In this document: positions 1-32,515 of the stretch, piece after piece
How positions within the stretch are numbered: the first letter of the stretch is position 1
Layout of the letters: each line of letters begins with the position of its first letter
Assembly (NCBI GenBank): GCA_003280885.1
Contig: QCDN01000013.1
Location: 1 to 32,515, forward strand
Direction of reading: 5' to 3'
DNA length: 32,515 nucleotides
DNA from: Prochlorococcus sp. AG-355-J04
GTDB taxonomy: Bacteria > Cyanobacteriota > Cyanobacteriia > PCC-6307 > Cyanobiaceae
Program-made: the position numbers and the translations under genes
Notes under the pieces: model-generated
What the model was told of the DNA's origin: nothing
The model's input: only the letters and a program-made list of their open reading frames with translations
The model's database searches: none

Positions 1-503
1 AGAATTGTTATGAGTGGAAATTGAATACTATTATATTTAGCAAATATAAGTAGTAATAATATTGAGCTGGAGAATAATATTCGATCAAACTTTAATCTTT
101 TTTTTAGTAGAACTAATGAGAATGAAAAAATTATTCCTGCAATAATAGGCGGATTAAAATAAATTAAATCTGTTAAGAATTTTGATCCAGAACCAATTTG
201 CCAAAAAAAACTAAGAGCTAATACCGAAATGAATCCTGGGATAATGAAACTTATACCTGATATCAATCCACCAAGATAACCATTTATTTTAAGACCTATA
301 TATATTGCCAATTGAGTAGATATTGGTCCTGGAAGTATTTGACATAATCCAATACCTTTTTCAAAAGATTGAGTTGATATCAATTTTTTATTATTTATAA
401 GTTCATCTTCGAATAAGGAAATATGAGCATAGGGTCCTCCAAAACTTAAGATACCAATTTTTAGGAAAGTTTTTGCAAGTTCAATTAAGGATATTTTTGC
501 CAT
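1..503 (-). CDS. chrA: Chromate transporter family protein ChrA (3' end beyond window)
   Basis: I translated 167 codons by hand from an ATG at 503; the C-terminal part lies off the left edge. The protein is a hydrophobic CHR-family membrane protein. It shows the FGGPYAH motif at residues 21-27 and the Q-x-L-PGP-x-x-TQ motif around residues 55-64, both typical of the N-terminal CHR domain, followed by several membrane segments. Characterised members export chromate from the cytoplasm. Here the gene is third in a leftward run, 30 bp after arsJ and behind the arsenate-linked GAPDH, so it is probably transcribed from the arsR/gap intergenic promoter. The substrate in this organism is unproven; chromate, or another oxyanion linked to phosphate or arsenate stress, are both possible. 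Confidence 0.88.
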   Translation of the reverse strand, partial: MAKISLIELAKTFLKIGILSFGGPYAHISLFEDELINNKKLISTQSFEKGIGLCQILPGPISTQLAIYIGLKINGYLGGLISGISFIIPGFISVLALSFFWQIGSGSKFLTDLIYFNPPIIAGIIFSFSLVLLKKRLKFDRILFSSSILLLLIFAKYNSIQFPLITI

Positions 504-27032: not shown

Positions 27033-27033
<1 letters not shown>

Positions 27034-27947
27034 TGAAATTAAAAATATTAAAAAATTTATTTATTTATTTTTTATTATTTACACCAATATCTCTTGGGGT
27101 TATTTCCTGTTCTGGAAATAATAAATCTAGTTCAAAATTTGAAGAGGAAATAACTTCAGATTTCATACCTCCCATTACAGCTGTTGCCGCACTAGGTCAA
27201 CTTTCTCCTTCGGGAGAAATTAGGCAACTGGCAGCTCCAATAAGTCAGTTTGGCTCTTCCCCTCGAATTGTCGAAATTTTTGTAAATGAGGGAGATTTCG
27301 TAAAAAAAGGTGATATTCTGGCAATCTTTGAAAACGGAGAAAAATTAATTGCTGATCTTGAAAGAAATGAGAATCTTATTAATACTATTAACGAAGAAAT
27401 TACCCTTAAGAAAGATCAAATTCAAAGGTATGAGTTAGCTTTTAGCAAAGATGTTTATTCTTTTGTAGAGTTTTTAAAGAGAAAAGATGAATTATTAAAA
27501 TTGCAAAAACAGAAAATAAATCTAATCGGAGATCAAAAAAATATCAAGATAGATCTATTTAATTCAAAACTAAGAAGTCCAATTGATGGTTTTATCCTTG
27601 GAATAAATACGAGAGTTGGTGAGAGGCCTCAAAATGAAGGGATTTTGGATATTGGTTCTAGTCAAAAAATGGAAGCTTTGATAGAGGTTTATGAATCTGA
27701 TATCGATAGAGTCTTTATCTCTCAGAAAGTTGAATTGAGTAGTGAGAATGGAGGTTTCCAAAAAAATCTTAAGGGAAAGGTTATTAGGATTAGTCCTCAG
27801 GTAAAACAAAGAAAAGTTTTATCGACTGATCCAACAGGGGATGCTGATTCGCGAATTATCGAGGTACTCGTAAAACTAGATCAAGATTCTATAGATATCG
27901 TTCAAAACTATGCAGGAATGAAAGTGATTGCAAAATTTATTCCCTAA
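27033..27947 (+). CDS. devB: DevB-type (HlyD family) membrane fusion protein
   Basis: The product has 304 residues. The N-terminal hydrophobic segment (FIYFLLFTPISLGVISC) ends in VISC, a lipobox-like sequence with Cys at about residue 27, so it may be a lipoprotein. A biotinyl-lipoyl-like half (ISQFGSSPRIVEIFVNEGDF), a coiled coil (about 110-165), the second lipoyl half (KLRSPIDGFILGINTRVGER) and a beta-barrel region follow. It links the DevCA inner-membrane exporter to the outer membrane. In heterocyst-forming cyanobacteria DevBCA exports glycolipids; here the substrate is unknown. It overlaps pcyA (TAATG) and devC (TAATG), each by one base. Confidence 0.88.
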
Positions 27948-29119
27948 TGAGTTTTTCTTTTTTAAAATTTAGAAAAATACCATTAGCTTGGTTGTTATTA
28001 ACTAGGCAACCATTAAGGCTAGCAGTTGCCATTGCTGGAATTAGTTTTGCTGGGATTTTGATGTTTATGCAATTAGGTTTTAGAGATGGTTTATTTGATA
28101 CGAGCGTAACTATTCATAAACTTCTAGATGCCGATCTTGTTTTGATAAGTCCAAGATCAAAAAGTTCCATAAGCATGAGTGGATTCCCAAAAAGAAGATT
28201 AATTCAAACTCTCGCAGTAGAAGATGTTGAAAAAACTGCTCCCGTTAATCTAAATTATTTACTTTGGAGAAATCCCGAAAATCTAAAAACTAGATCAATA
28301 CTTGCATTAGGTTTTAATCCCTCCGATTCACTTCTTTTAGATGAAGGATTCTCAAAGAAAGCTTATAAATTGAGAAATCCATCAAGAGTTCTTTTTGACA
28401 AACTATCTAGACCTGAATTCGGACCGATTGAAGAATGGTTCTTATCTGAAAAAAAAGTTGAGACTGAGGTTGCTGGAAAAAGAGTAATTGTTGAGGGCCT
28501 TGTGGAGTTGGGACCATCTTTTGGTGCAGATGGTAATTTGATAACTAGTCGAGAAACCTTCTTAAGACTTTTTCCTGCTAATCCTCCTGGCAGTATAGAA
28601 ATTGGTTTAGTAAAGCTAAAAAAAGGATCTGATCCTGAATTGATTTCAAGGATATTAAATAACTCACTCCCAAATGATGTTAGGGTTCTTACAAAAAAAC
28701 AATTTATAGAATTTGAAAAGAATTATTGGAGAAATAGTACTGCAATAGGTTTTATATTTAGTTTGGGGGCCTTAATGGGTTTTGTTGTAGGGTGTGTGGT
28801 CGTTTATCAAATTCTTTATAGTGACGTTACTGATCATCTCCCAGAATACGCTACCTTATTGGCAATGGGATATAGACTTAAGTCCCTTTTCTTTGTCGTA
28901 GCAAGAGAGGGGTTTTTGTTGGCATTGTTTGGTTATTTACCTGCTTATTTCTCTGGTCAAATACTTTACTCAGTTATAAGAAGTTCTACTAAACTCCCAA
29001 TAATTATGGACGCAGACAAAACTATTTTAATTTTTGTATTAGTTTTAGTTATGTGTATGGGTTCCGCCGCTGTTGCGATGCGTAAATTAGTTGACGCTGA
29101 TCCTGCCGAAATTTTTTAA
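27947..29119 (+). CDS. devC: DevC-type ABC transporter permease
   Basis: This 390-residue MacB/FtsX-like permease has a first helix at about 22-45 (LAVAIAGISFAGILMFMQLG), a large periplasmic domain, and three C-terminal helices (about 265-290, 315-340, 355-380). The segment HKLLDADLVLISPRSKSS and the C-terminal LATLLAMGYRLKSLFFVV are typical of DevC. It starts with ATG overlapping the devB stop and is followed 13 bp later by devA. It forms the membrane part of the exporter with DevA. Confidence 0.92.
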   Translation: MSFSFLKFRKIPLAWLLLTRQPLRLAVAIAGISFAGILMFMQLGFRDGLFDTSVTIHKLLDADLVLISPRSKSSISMSGFPKRRLIQTLAVEDVEKTAPVNLNYLLWRNPENLKTRSILALGFNPSDSLLLDEGFSKKAYKLRNPSRVLFDKLSRPEFGPIEEWFLSEKKVETEVAGKRVIVEGLVELGPSFGADGNLITSRETFLRLFPANPPGSIEIGLVKLKKGSDPELISRILNNSLPNDVRVLTKKQFIEFEKNYWRNSTAIGFIFSLGALMGFVVGCVVVYQILYSDVTDHLPEYATLLAMGYRLKSLFFVVAREGFLLALFGYLPAYFSGQILYSVIRSSTKLPIIMDADKTILIFVLVLVMCMGSAAVAMRKLVDADPAEIF

Positions 29120-29132
29120 CAATTAAAGATAA

Positions 29133-29861
29133 ATGGTCAAAGCTAATAAATCAAAAAATAATGTTAAAAACCTTAAAACAGTCTCAATATATAATTTGAG
29201 TCACTTTTATGGAAAAAATGAGAATAAAAAACAAGTTCTTAATGAAGTTAATTTAAATATTGATAAAGGAGAGTTGGTTCTTTTAAAAGGACCCTCTGGA
29301 TGTGGTAAAACGACTCTATTAACATTAATTGGTGCCTTGAGAACTTGTCAAAGTGGAGATTTAACTGTACTAAATAATCAGTTAAATGGAGCATCAAGTA
29401 AAACGCGTCAGATTCTTAGAAGAAATATTGGAATGATTTTTCAAGGTCACAATCTTCTGAGATGTTTAACAGCAGAACAAAATGTGCAGATGGGCGCCGA
29501 TTTAATAAAAGGTTTAACATATTTGCAAAGACGTGAAATAGCAAGGAATTGGTTGTCAGCAGTAGGATTAGAAGAACATCATAAAAAGCTGCCAAATGAT
29601 TTATCTGGTGGGCAGAAACAGAGAGTAGCAATTGCTCGAGCTTTATCTGCTAACCCAAAACTTTTATTAGCTGATGAGCCCACTTCTGCTTTAGATAGCG
29701 TCACAGGAAGAGAAATAGTAACCCTTTTAAGAAAACTAGCAAAAGAGCAAAATTGTTCTGTACTTATGGTGACCCACGATCCAAGAATTTCTGATATGGC
29801 TGATAGGATATTAAATATGGAAGATGGTAAAATATATAGTGCTCATAGTGAGCTAATATAA
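29133..29861 (+). CDS. devA: DevA-type ABC transporter ATP-binding protein
   Basis: This 242-residue ABC ATPase of the LolD/MacB group has Walker A (GPSGCGKTT), the Q-loop (GMIFQGHNLLRCLT), the signature LSGGQKQR, Walker B (LLLADEPTSALD) and the switch His (VTHDP). It starts with about 15 extra polar residues compared with the core domain. It powers DevC/DevB export. It is the last recognised gene of the pcyA-devBCA run; a small basic-protein gene starts 18 bp later. Confidence 0.93.
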   Translation: MVKANKSKNNVKNLKTVSIYNLSHFYGKNENKKQVLNEVNLNIDKGELVLLKGPSGCGKTTLLTLIGALRTCQSGDLTVLNNQLNGASSKTRQILRRNIGMIFQGHNLLRCLTAEQNVQMGADLIKGLTYLQRREIARNWLSAVGLEEHHKKLPNDLSGGQKQRVAIARALSANPKLLLADEPTSALDSVTGREIVTLLRKLAKEQNCSVLMVTHDPRISDMADRILNMEDGKIYSAHSELI

Positions 29862-30090: not shown

Positions 30091-31002
30091 ATGAATGTAA
30101 GTATTGTTATACCGACTTACAATAGATTACCCATATTAGAGAAATGTCTCTTTGCGCTTGAGAATCAAAAATTAAATATAAATGTCAGTAATTACGAAGT
30201 AATAGTAATTGATGATGGATCAACTGATGGGACAACCTCATGGATAAATAAAAACAAAGCTCATCTTCCACACGTTATTCTATTTCAGCAAGAACATGGA
30301 GGGCCTGCACTTGGAAGAAATTTGGGAGTAATTAAATCAAAATATGAAATTATTATATTCATTGATAGTGATCTAATTGTTTTAGACAATTTTATAAATT
30401 GCCACGTAGAAAAATTACTTGCCTCTTGGAGAAAAAATGATAAAAAATGTTTTACCTATGGCTCGGTAGTCAATACATCTAATTTTCTGAATCCTCAGAG
30501 TGAAAAATATAAAATAATGGACACTTCTTTTGCCTACTTTGCCACTGGGAATGTTGCGATTTCAAAAGAATTGATTTTAAGTGTGGGATTATTTGATACT
30601 TCTTTTAGTCTTTACGGTTGGGAGGATTTAGAACTTGGTGAAAGATTAAAAAAAATTGGGACAAAATTAATTAAATGTCCAAATGCAGTAGGTTTTCATT
30701 GGCATCCGCCATTTAAATGCGAACAAATAGATTCATTAATAGCTCAAGAAAAAGAGAGAGCAAAAATGGCTTTAGTGTTTTATAAGAAACATCCAAATTT
30801 AAGGGTTAGATTTATGATTCAATTAACTCCTCTACATAATTTACTTTGGCAAATTCTTTGCTTGGGAGGAATAATAAGTGTTGATAGAATCCTTCCTTTA
30901 TTAAGATTCCTAGTAAGTATAAGAAGAAATAGACTCGCTCTTGAGATTCTTAGGATCCCTCTAAATATGATTTACATTAAACAGTTAACCAAATCAAGAT
31001 AA
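30091..31002 (+). CDS. Family 2 glycosyltransferase
   Basis: This 303-residue GT-A fold enzyme has the nucleotide-sugar-binding start VSIVIPTYNR, VIDDGSTDGTT, the DxD-type metal motif in FIDSDLIVL and the acceptor-side YGWEDLELGERL (ED motif typical of family 2 enzymes). It has no clear N-terminal membrane helix. The C-terminus has an amphipathic or hydrophobic stretch (LLWQILCLGGIISVDRIL) that may attach it to the membrane. It probably transfers a sugar to a glycolipid or polysaccharide; the exact substrate cannot be read. It lies between devBCA and rpsB, in the same direction. Confidence 0.88.
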   Translation: MNVSIVIPTYNRLPILEKCLFALENQKLNINVSNYEVIVIDDGSTDGTTSWINKNKAHLPHVILFQQEHGGPALGRNLGVIKSKYEIIIFIDSDLIVLDNFINCHVEKLLASWRKNDKKCFTYGSVVNTSNFLNPQSEKYKIMDTSFAYFATGNVAISKELILSVGLFDTSFSLYGWEDLELGERLKKIGTKLIKCPNAVGFHWHPPFKCEQIDSLIAQEKERAKMALVFYKKHPNLRVRFMIQLTPLHNLLWQILCLGGIISVDRILPLLRFLVSIRRNRLALEILRIPLNMIYIKQLTKSR

Positions 31003-31027
31003 AAAACTTTTAGAAATACACATCACT

Positions 31028-31036
31028 TGCTAGAAT
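31028..31036 (+). promoter_or_regulatory. Extended -10 promoter for rpsB-tsf
   Basis: TGCTAGAAT is a TGn extended -10 followed by a near-consensus hexamer. It predicts transcription from about 31043, so the transcript would begin just ahead of the interleaved pairing elements at 31056. No strong -35 is seen, as is common with an extended -10. Confidence 0.5.
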
Positions 31037-31055
31037 CGTTAAAATTAAATCCACA

Positions 31056-31119
31056 CATCTGGCAGTTTCGGGTGATTTATTAATTTTAATTTCCCGCCAG
31101 ATGGAGGCTAACCCGAAAC
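31056..31119 (+). promoter_or_regulatory. rpsB leader with interleaved pairings (pseudoknot), probable S2 autoregulatory site
   Basis: CATCTGGC (31056-31063) is perfectly complementary to GCCAGATG (31096-31103). GTTTCGGGT (31065-31073) is perfectly complementary to ACCCGAAAC (31111-31119). The order is a, b, a', b', so both can form only as a pseudoknot. CGGG in b could also pair with CCCG (31093-31096) as an alternative. It is G/C-rich against an A/T-rich background and ends 12 nt before the rpsB ATG. In E. coli, S2 represses its own mRNA through a structured leader; the same control here is inferred. Confidence 0.75.
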
Positions 31120-31131
31120 CCTTTTTAAATT

Positions 31132-31836
31132 ATGGCTGTTGTATCACTATCAGAAATGATGGAAGCTGGTGCTCACTTTGGGCATCAAACTAGACGTTGG
31201 AATCCTAAGATGTCAAAGTATATATATTGCGCGAGAAATGGAGTTCATATTATTGATCTTGTAAAAACAGCATTGTGTATGAACAATGCGTATAAGTGGA
31301 CTAGAAACGCAGCAAAAAGCGGTAAACGGTTCCTTTTTGTCGGTACAAAAAAACAAGCATCAGATGTAGTAGCTCAGGAAGCTACACGCTGTGGAGCTGC
31401 ATATGTAAATCAAAGATGGCTTGGAGGGATGTTGACTAATTGGACAACAATGAAAGCTAGGATTGAAAGATTAAAGGATCTAGAAAGAATGGAAAGTAGT
31501 GGTTCAATAGCAATGAGGCCTAAAAAAGAAGCTGCAGTATTAAGGAGAGAACTAGAAAGATTACAAAAATACTTAGGTGGACTTAAGGGTATGAGAAGAT
31601 TACCTGATGTAGTTGTATTGGTTGATCAGAGAAGAGAATCTAATGCAGTATTAGAAGCTAGAAAATTAGATATCTCATTAGTATCAATGTTGGATACAAA
31701 TTGCGATCCGGATTTGTGTGAAGTTCCAATTCCTTGTAACGATGATGCCGTTAGATCAGTGCAACTTATTTTAGGAAGACTTGCAGATGCCATAAATGAG
31801 GGTAGAAAGGGCTCTAACGCCGAAAGAAAAAATTAA
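31132..31836 (+). CDS. rpsB: 30S ribosomal protein S2
   Basis: This is a 234-residue S2 with the typical [20 protein letters not shown] start, [21 protein letters not shown] and LDTNCDPD (usual [10 protein letters not shown]) signatures. It is full length for cyanobacteria. The 5' leader carries a strong pairing element, and tsf follows 44 bp downstream, the conserved bacterial rpsB-tsf order. The gene is more G/C-rich and codon-biased than its neighbours, as expected for a highly expressed gene. Confidence 0.97.
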
Positions 31837-31880: not shown

Positions 31881-32515
31881 ATGGGAAACATTACAGCAAA
31901 ACTTGTAAAAGATCTTAGAGACAAAACTGGCGCAGGAATGATGGACTGCAAAAAAGCACTTAATGAAACTGAAGGAAATCTAGACAAAGCTTTGGAATGG
32001 TTAAGAAAGAAAGGGATAGCTAGTGCTGAAAAGAAATCGGGCAGAGTAGCGGCCGAAGGGTCAATTGGTAGTTATATACATACTGGATCAAGAGTTGGCG
32101 TTTTACTAGAGTTAAATTGTGAAACTGATTTTGTTGCTAGAGGTGATATATTCCAATCTCTTTTGAAGGATGTCTCAATGCAAGTAGCAGCATGCCCAAA
32201 TGTTGAGTATGTATCAATTGATGAAATACCTGAAGATGTTGTGGAAAAAGAAAAGCAGATTGAAATGGGTAGGGATGATTTGTCAGGAAAACCAGAACAA
32301 ATTAAAGAAAAAATAGTTGAAGGGAGAATAGCAAAAAGACTTAATGAGCTTGTTTTGCTTTCACAACCCTACATTAAAGATAGTTCTCTAACAGTTGAGG
32401 ATCTTGTTAAACAAGCAGCTGCAAAAATTGGGGAAAATATCAAAGTAAGACGCTTTACAAGATATACATTGGGTGAAGGTATTGAAAAAAATCAGATGGA
32501 CTTTGCTGAAGAGGT
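31881..32515 (+). CDS. tsf: Translation elongation factor Ts (3' end beyond window)
   Basis: From ATG 31881 the frame is open to the right edge (211 codons seen). It starts [20 protein letters not shown], the UBA-like N-terminal domain with the classic [12 protein letters not shown]. The core signature [10 protein letters not shown], which contacts EF-Tu, follows. EF-Ts exchanges GDP for GTP on EF-Tu. Family proteins are close to 218-220 residues in cyanobacteria, so only a few residues are missing. Confidence 0.97.

Follow-up and report, generated by a model that had tools for sequence, protein, structure and literature searches.

The rpsB-tsf leader in the DNA analyzed here (32,515 nucleotides of Prochlorococcus sp. 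AG-355-J04, contig QCDN01000013.1, referred to as the window) is the cyanobacterial form of the S2 leader, known as the rpsB motif and, in E. coli, as t44. Excess S2 most likely binds this leader, and the pseudoknot would then block initiation on rpsB and lower tsf; we give this reading a probability of about 0.85. The kind of element is already known and is the rpsB motif or S2 leader presented in passages of Meyer et al. 2009 (PMC2704228). The leader consists of conserved, covarying helices and is located directly before rpsB.

Structure of the rpsB leader

Two perfect helices are interleaved upstream of rpsB on the forward strand. In the P1 helix, CATCTGGC at 31056 to 31063 is perfectly complementary to GCCAGATG at 31096 to 31103 (8 bp), and in the pseudoknot helix, GTTTCGGGT at 31065 to 31073 is perfectly complementary to ACCCGAAAC at 31111 to 31119 (9 bp). 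The 8-nt and 9-nt pairs had been claimed by the first-pass annotation of this DNA as perfect and interleaved, and they are exact to the nucleotide. A P3 hairpin (31074 to 31092) is weak in the window's genome, where G74-U92, A75-U91, U77-A89, and U78-A88 can pair around a mismatch at 76/90. The 3' strand of P1 is joined to that of the pseudoknot helix by the linker GAGGCUA (31104 to 31110), whose conservation is seen in the genus and family counts and in the t44 alignment. Together with the last P1 base the linker gives GGAGG, and its counterpart in the E. coli leader is GUGGAGGC. Its first bases are GAGGC in 56 of the 57 loci from the genus and in 59 of the 67 from the rest of the family. The downstream strand, claimed to lie 12 nt before the start codon, does end there, at 31119, and is followed by a 12-nt spacer (31120 to 31131) without an SD-like motif (GGAG, AGGA, or GAGG) and by the ATG at 31132. 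From their sequences, we take the open reading frame at 31132 to 31836 (234 aa) to be rpsB, encoding ribosomal protein S2, and that at 31881 to 32515, which runs off the end of the window, to be tsf, encoding elongation factor Ts.

The chance level was estimated by one scoring search for interleaved perfect helices in the 150 nt upstream of rpsB. The site scored 27, and none of 1,000 dinucleotide shuffles of this region matched it (shuffle maximum, 25), in line with the earlier claim that such complementarity is unlikely by chance. Among 150-nt tiles of the whole window, taken on both strands, every tile scoring 27 and the single tile scoring 23 overlapped the site, and the best score elsewhere was 20. 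Chance complementarity could draw on one observation, namely, that the minimum-energy fold of the leader was no better than those of shuffles (z = -0.21). This null result may be attributed to the folding program, which forms no pseudoknots and instead pairs GGG at 31070 to 31072 with CCC at 31093 to 31095. The shuffles, the presence of the element in 201 of 201 loci, and the covariation described below refute chance complementarity, whose probability is negligible. The GGG/CCC pairing was also considered as a conserved feature and was rejected, having shown no covariation and being unpaired at its three pairs in 48, 7, and 30 of 121 sequences.

Occurrence in cyanobacteria

The rpsB gene was found in 80 of the 101 genomes sampled from the genus, whose assemblies are often incomplete, in 192 of the 194 from the phylum, and in 120 of the 121 from the family; the three samples overlap. 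Upstream DNA was taken from part of the genus and family genomes with rpsB, together with 20 + 20 loci outside the class. The class-level set comprised 201 loci, including the window: 57 from the genus, 67 from the rest of the family, and 77 of 79 from the rest of the class (G152 and G158 were omitted).

P1 and an interleaved helix containing GGGU were present directly before rpsB in all 201 class-level loci, 198 of which were scored by script. In L095, L096, and L115, where the script preferred another pairing, the strands were set by eye, and the L115 pseudoknot includes a U-G pair. Neither helix was absent from any of these loci, so that the loss of one helix in relatives keeping rpsB, which would have counted against the proposed leader, was not seen. 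Among the motif matches listed, P1 is separated from the pseudoknot strand by 0 to 4 nt, the inner stretch measures 14 to 139 nt, and the pseudoknot varies from 5 to 11 bp.

The 80 closest named relatives of S2 were 78 Prochlorococcus and 2 labelled Synechococcaceae, the first 53 with 100% identity in the best segment, in agreement with a Prochlorococcus origin of the window. From these 80, 78 Prochlorococcus or Synechococcaceae loci with at least 60 nt upstream were drawn, which overlap the class-level set, and all 78 carried P1 and the pseudoknot. Seventy-six were recognized by script, which required the prefix CACA or CGCA, and the two with the prefix TACA were recognized by eye. Near the rpsB gene of one relative (L043, 2473 to 2529), a glutamine riboswitch (RF01739) was also detected at 43.3 bits against a cut-off of 35.

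Covariation

Alignment A1 contained 121 distinct sequences, out of 171 distinct motif sequences, with an inner loop of at most 60 nt; it was made by MAFFT without structure, and the helices were placed after the sequences had been viewed. Over the whole structure, 93.7% of cells were paired and 18 of 22 pairs had changed on both sides. Cells with changes on both sides numbered 372, versus 139.8 in shuffles, which ignore kinship, and none of 500 shuffles reached any of the five measures. Sliding the partners by one column reduced pairing from 93.7% to 55.3% (-1) or 44.0% (+1), and slides of 1 to 3 columns abolished the pairing signal.

Compensatory changes, which the first-pass annotation had suggested looking for, occurred in both helices. 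In P1 (5' strand, CAUCUGGC; 3' strand, GCCAGAUG), all 8 pairs had changed on both sides and 97.0% of cells were paired, with the innermost pair unpaired in 24 of 121 sequences. For the pseudoknot helix (5' strand, GUUUCGGGU), 96.2% of cells were paired, 5 of 9 pairs had changed on both sides, and this helix alone passed both the shuffle and the slide controls, none of 500 shuffles reaching any of the five measures; its pair 21/130 was unpaired in 24 of 121 sequences. The changes in its flanking pairs were from U-A to A-U in 17 sequences and from C-G to U-A in 2. The core, GGGU/ACCC, is nearly invariant, and therefore covariation supports the flanking pairs only. P3 showed changes on both sides at 5 of 5 pairs, with 84.4% of cells paired.

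The same data bear on whether the complementarity acts at the DNA level, as operator palindromes, or as an intrinsic terminator or attenuator, which is very unlikely. A simple scan gave one terminator-like match, at 31056 to 31074, versus a shuffle mean of 0.2, but the tail ATTTATTAAT is no clean T run and the strands are interleaved. Moreover, G-U is tolerated in part of the sequences at 6 of the 8 P1 pairs, a pattern that suits RNA better than palindromic DNA.

Relation to the E. coli element and the published motif

In passages of Meyer et al. 2009 (PMC2704228), the rpsB motif comprises P1, a P2 and a P3 that both vary, and a pseudoknot connecting the junction with a 3' extension, and Cyanobacteria are named among its carriers, pseudoknot included. 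The element in the window agrees with this description in its place before rpsB, in P1, and in a pseudoknot linking the junction strand to the 3' extension after P1. The variable P3 and the P2 that these passages give as very short or absent in Cyanobacteria are likewise found in the cyanobacterial loci. The pseudoknot differs in length, with 9 bp here versus the 5 predicted outside Firmicutes (PMC2704228). A second difference is that RF01815 ("rpsB"), equated here with the published motif by name and place, matched none of the 40 class genomes searched at E 0.001; in the control set it was detected only in Caulobacter and there, too, below its cut-off.

At Rfam's own cut-offs, no family matched in the window, RF01815 (40 bits) included. 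A relaxed scan of 30950 to 31250 found t44 (RF00127), the E. coli S2 operator, at 31034 to 31113 with 29.8 bits (E = 1.3e-4 for 301 bases). The Rfam comparison proposed earlier thus recovered an S2 leader, but below its cut-off of 44 bits. The alignment extends across the whole model and shares with it the flanking CACACA, P1, GGGUG, the 3' strand of P1, UGGAGGCU, and AAC, and the E. coli GGGGU/ACCCC occupies the position of the pseudoknot by eye. Besides the lower score, the difference is that the model's helix inside P1 is partly unmatched. At genome scale, t44 matched 0 of 59 phylum genomes at E 0.001, with the controls E. coli and Thermotoga maritima detected. The best RF01815 score in a relative was 28.7 bits against the cut-off of 40, and relaxed scans of two sets of 20 loci yielded 2 and 11 loci, respectively, that matched these families, all below the cut-offs. 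The element has the published anatomy but does not reach the Rfam cut-offs. Annotation relying on these two models would therefore omit the S2 leader in the genomes tried.

A covariance model, R1, was built from alignment A1 with P1 and P3 only and without E. coli. Over nine sources, it scored 74.6 bits in the window and 22.6 bits at the E. coli rpsB leader (L222), the latter with an E-value, rough as all those of R1 are, of 8.2e-5 in 37 kb. By eye, the E. coli leader carries CACGUAUC/GAUACGUG, GGGGU, UGGAGGC, and ACCCC at equivalent places. Judged by this sequence match to a model built without E. coli, the leader is homologous to the E. coli element and not a mere analogue. The claim of a cyanobacterial S2 leader therefore stands, by the published motif and the match of R1 to E. 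coli, although the first-pass annotation had overlooked the prior publication. The operators of S15 in rpsO and of S4 in the alpha operon also exert autogenous control by a pseudoknot near the start site, as stated in parts of a 2024 review (PMC10931766), but they involve another protein and gene, and the likeness is a functional analogy only.

R1 matched 221 of 290 class genomes, a lower bound, as 7 of the missed genomes carry the element on direct reading (G263, G270, G179, G183, G272, G278, and G320, with loci L115, L135, L130, L128, L137, L052, and L206, respectively). Every matching genome listed, including the window's own, was matched at a single place. The match was separated from rpsB by 8 to 12 nt in the ten genomes compared (G000, G256, G041, G082, G262, G201, G091, G317, G166, and G197). 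Among seven loci supplied from outside the class, R1 matched one, L142 of family f31 (315 to 392, plus strand; 17.0 bits, E = 0.0034). This weak match has P1 and the GGAGG linker, and its pseudoknot is poor by eye.

A different rpsB leader in family f29

A different conserved rpsB leader was observed in 29 of 32 loci of the sister family f29, which lies outside the class and appears to be Gastranaerophilales-like; L149, L161, and L237 were without this leader or its 3' part. Examples are L146 (307 to 376, plus strand), L155 (87 to 162, minus strand), and L224 (309 to 378, plus strand), and there are 26 further loci. Its pattern is GGUUAnACnnGUCU-GAUAGG...CCCUAGU-hairpin-AUG-AGAC...UAGCC-CGUAGUACAAU. 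Covariation was evaluated on 27 of the 29 loci (L157 and L242 were left out). Changes on both sides were present at 3 of 4 pairs of the inner helix and 3 of 8 pairs of the outer helix, one outer pair being unpaired in 17 of 27 loci, and RNAalifold gave 16 pairs, 8 of them with double changes. Two of the five shuffle measures were not exceeded (double-change pairs, 75 of 500 shuffles; pair types, 499 of 500). Rfam gave no matches in 8 loci at E up to 1, no pseudoknot was found by eye, and a name for the leader was not found in the titles and abstract openings of the literature. It is possibly an undescribed ribosomal leader.

Promoter and translation start

An extended -10 element (TGC TAGAAT, 31028 to 31036) is the probable promoter of rpsB-tsf. 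It had been placed 20 bp upstream of the paired strands and ends 19 nt before P1, a spacing that is nearly constant in relatives. In the genus, 42 of 57 loci have the pattern TGnTRnnnT with its end 19 nt ahead of P1; the distance is 22 to 23 nt in 55 of the 67 loci from the rest of the family and in 62 of the 77 from the rest of the class. The promoter scan was barely above shuffles (2 sites versus a mean of 1.2), and the evidence is thus the conserved place and not the scan. The near-constant distance fits a transcript start just before P1. Further upstream, we presume that 30091 to 31002 is a glycosyltransferase-like gene. Another open reading frame occupies 27033 to 27947, and together with a membrane protein (27947 to 29119) and an ABC ATPase (29133 to 29861), it presumably forms a DevBCA-type exporter.

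The distance from the end of the pseudoknot to the AUG is 7 to 15 nt within the family and 8 to 21 nt among other class members. An SD-like motif (as defined above) between the pseudoknot and the AUG was present in 0 of 124 same-family loci versus 77 of 77 other class loci. The loss of this motif as a peculiarity of rpsB in the family was considered and dropped, as only 1 of the 21 window open reading frames of at least 150 aa is preceded by such a motif and the trend at tsf runs parallel (0 of 61 same-family loci versus 12 of 17 others). The GGAGG linker as the SD of rpsB is disfavored as well: it lies 24 nt upstream of the AUG, families with an SD downstream of it retain it, and GTGGC takes its place in 7 of the 67 loci from the rest of the family.

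Proposed control by S2

As summarized in parts of the 2024 review, uS2 represses rpsB-tsf in E. coli via the 5' untranslated region, with bS1 helping (PMC10931766). Taking E. coli as a guide, S2 would also be the ligand in cyanobacteria, and the repression and steric block proposed here are presumed. P1, P3, and the interleaved pseudoknot helix flank the conserved GGAGG linker in the rpsB-tsf mRNA leader; when free S2 outnumbers 16S rRNA, it most likely binds this structure, and the stabilized pseudoknot would prevent initiation on rpsB and lower tsf. The 3' strand of the pseudoknot, with its end 12 nt upstream of the AUG, falls within the expected 30S footprint. In the other class members, the SD-like motif lies between the pseudoknot and the AUG in all 77 loci, so that a stable pseudoknot would leave the ribosome little room at its site. 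According to the same parts of the review, the E. coli S2 operator excludes the ribosome binding site and the mechanism is unclear (PMC10931766), which means that even for E. coli the simple steric block is unproven. No experiment testing control by S2 in a cyanobacterium was found in the titles and abstract openings of the openly licensed literature, and the main text of a 2020 survey of new ribosomal leaders (PMC7247131) contains the string "cyanobacteri" 0 times.

The fold could instead be conserved mainly as an aid to translation, the pseudoknot keeping the leader open or recruiting S1 or the 30S subunit, with S2 not being the cyanobacterial ligand. S2 binding in cyanobacteria was likewise not found in that literature, and the review, in the parts cited, names pseudoknots as high-affinity targets of S1 (PMC10931766). 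The same-family leaders have no SD-like motif before the AUG (0 of 124), so ribosome recruitment must use something else. However, SD absence is general in the window (1 of 21), and rpsB therefore needs no special recruiter. The element also sits before rpsB itself and retains features of the E. coli S2 operator, and a role mainly as a translation aid is accordingly improbable.

The S2 leader may also be refined into a bistable form rather than replaced by a full alternative, a proposal that we consider doubtful. A possible 5' hairpin, CAUCUGG/UCGGGUG (31056 to 31074), is a hypothetical conformer in which the 5' strand of P1 pairs with GGGUG and which would exclude P1 and the pseudoknot. During transcription, 31056 to 31062 would pair with 31068 to 31074, leaving the linker and start region open, and S2 would select and capture the state with P1 and the pseudoknot, shutting initiation. 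Over five pairs in 121 sequences, 604 of 605 cells of the hairpin were standard (99.8%), versus at most 50.2% in slid versions. A two-state switch would explain why outer P1 positions change only where both pairings survive. Of 82 distinct 5' fragments, 74 folded better than the shuffle mean (averages, -4.6 versus -2.7 kcal/mol), the control being 50 shuffles of each fragment's own P1 strand plus junction, with fragment starts set by script.

Several observations weaken this two-state refinement. All five hairpin pairs can form in 78 of the 82 fragments, helices ordinarily undergo transitions by way of G-U, and the E. coli sequence allows 4 of 5 hairpin pairs with one mismatch (by eye). The pseudoknot and P3 hold GGGUG constant, which makes covariation impossible for the 5' hairpin and its shuffle control uninformative, with 497 to 500 of 500 shuffles reaching every measure. 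The hairpin pairing may be a by-product of the recognition sequence.

Implications

Inspection of the sequence alone was enough to single out a genuine cis-regulatory RNA, in a genome that is small and rich in A/T. The families that combine the pseudoknot with an SD and the family that has the pseudoknot without one offer a natural comparison for how the block would work. If cyanobacterial rpsB is indeed controlled by S2, very abundant phototrophs would regulate their ribosome supply through a leader that they share with E. coli.
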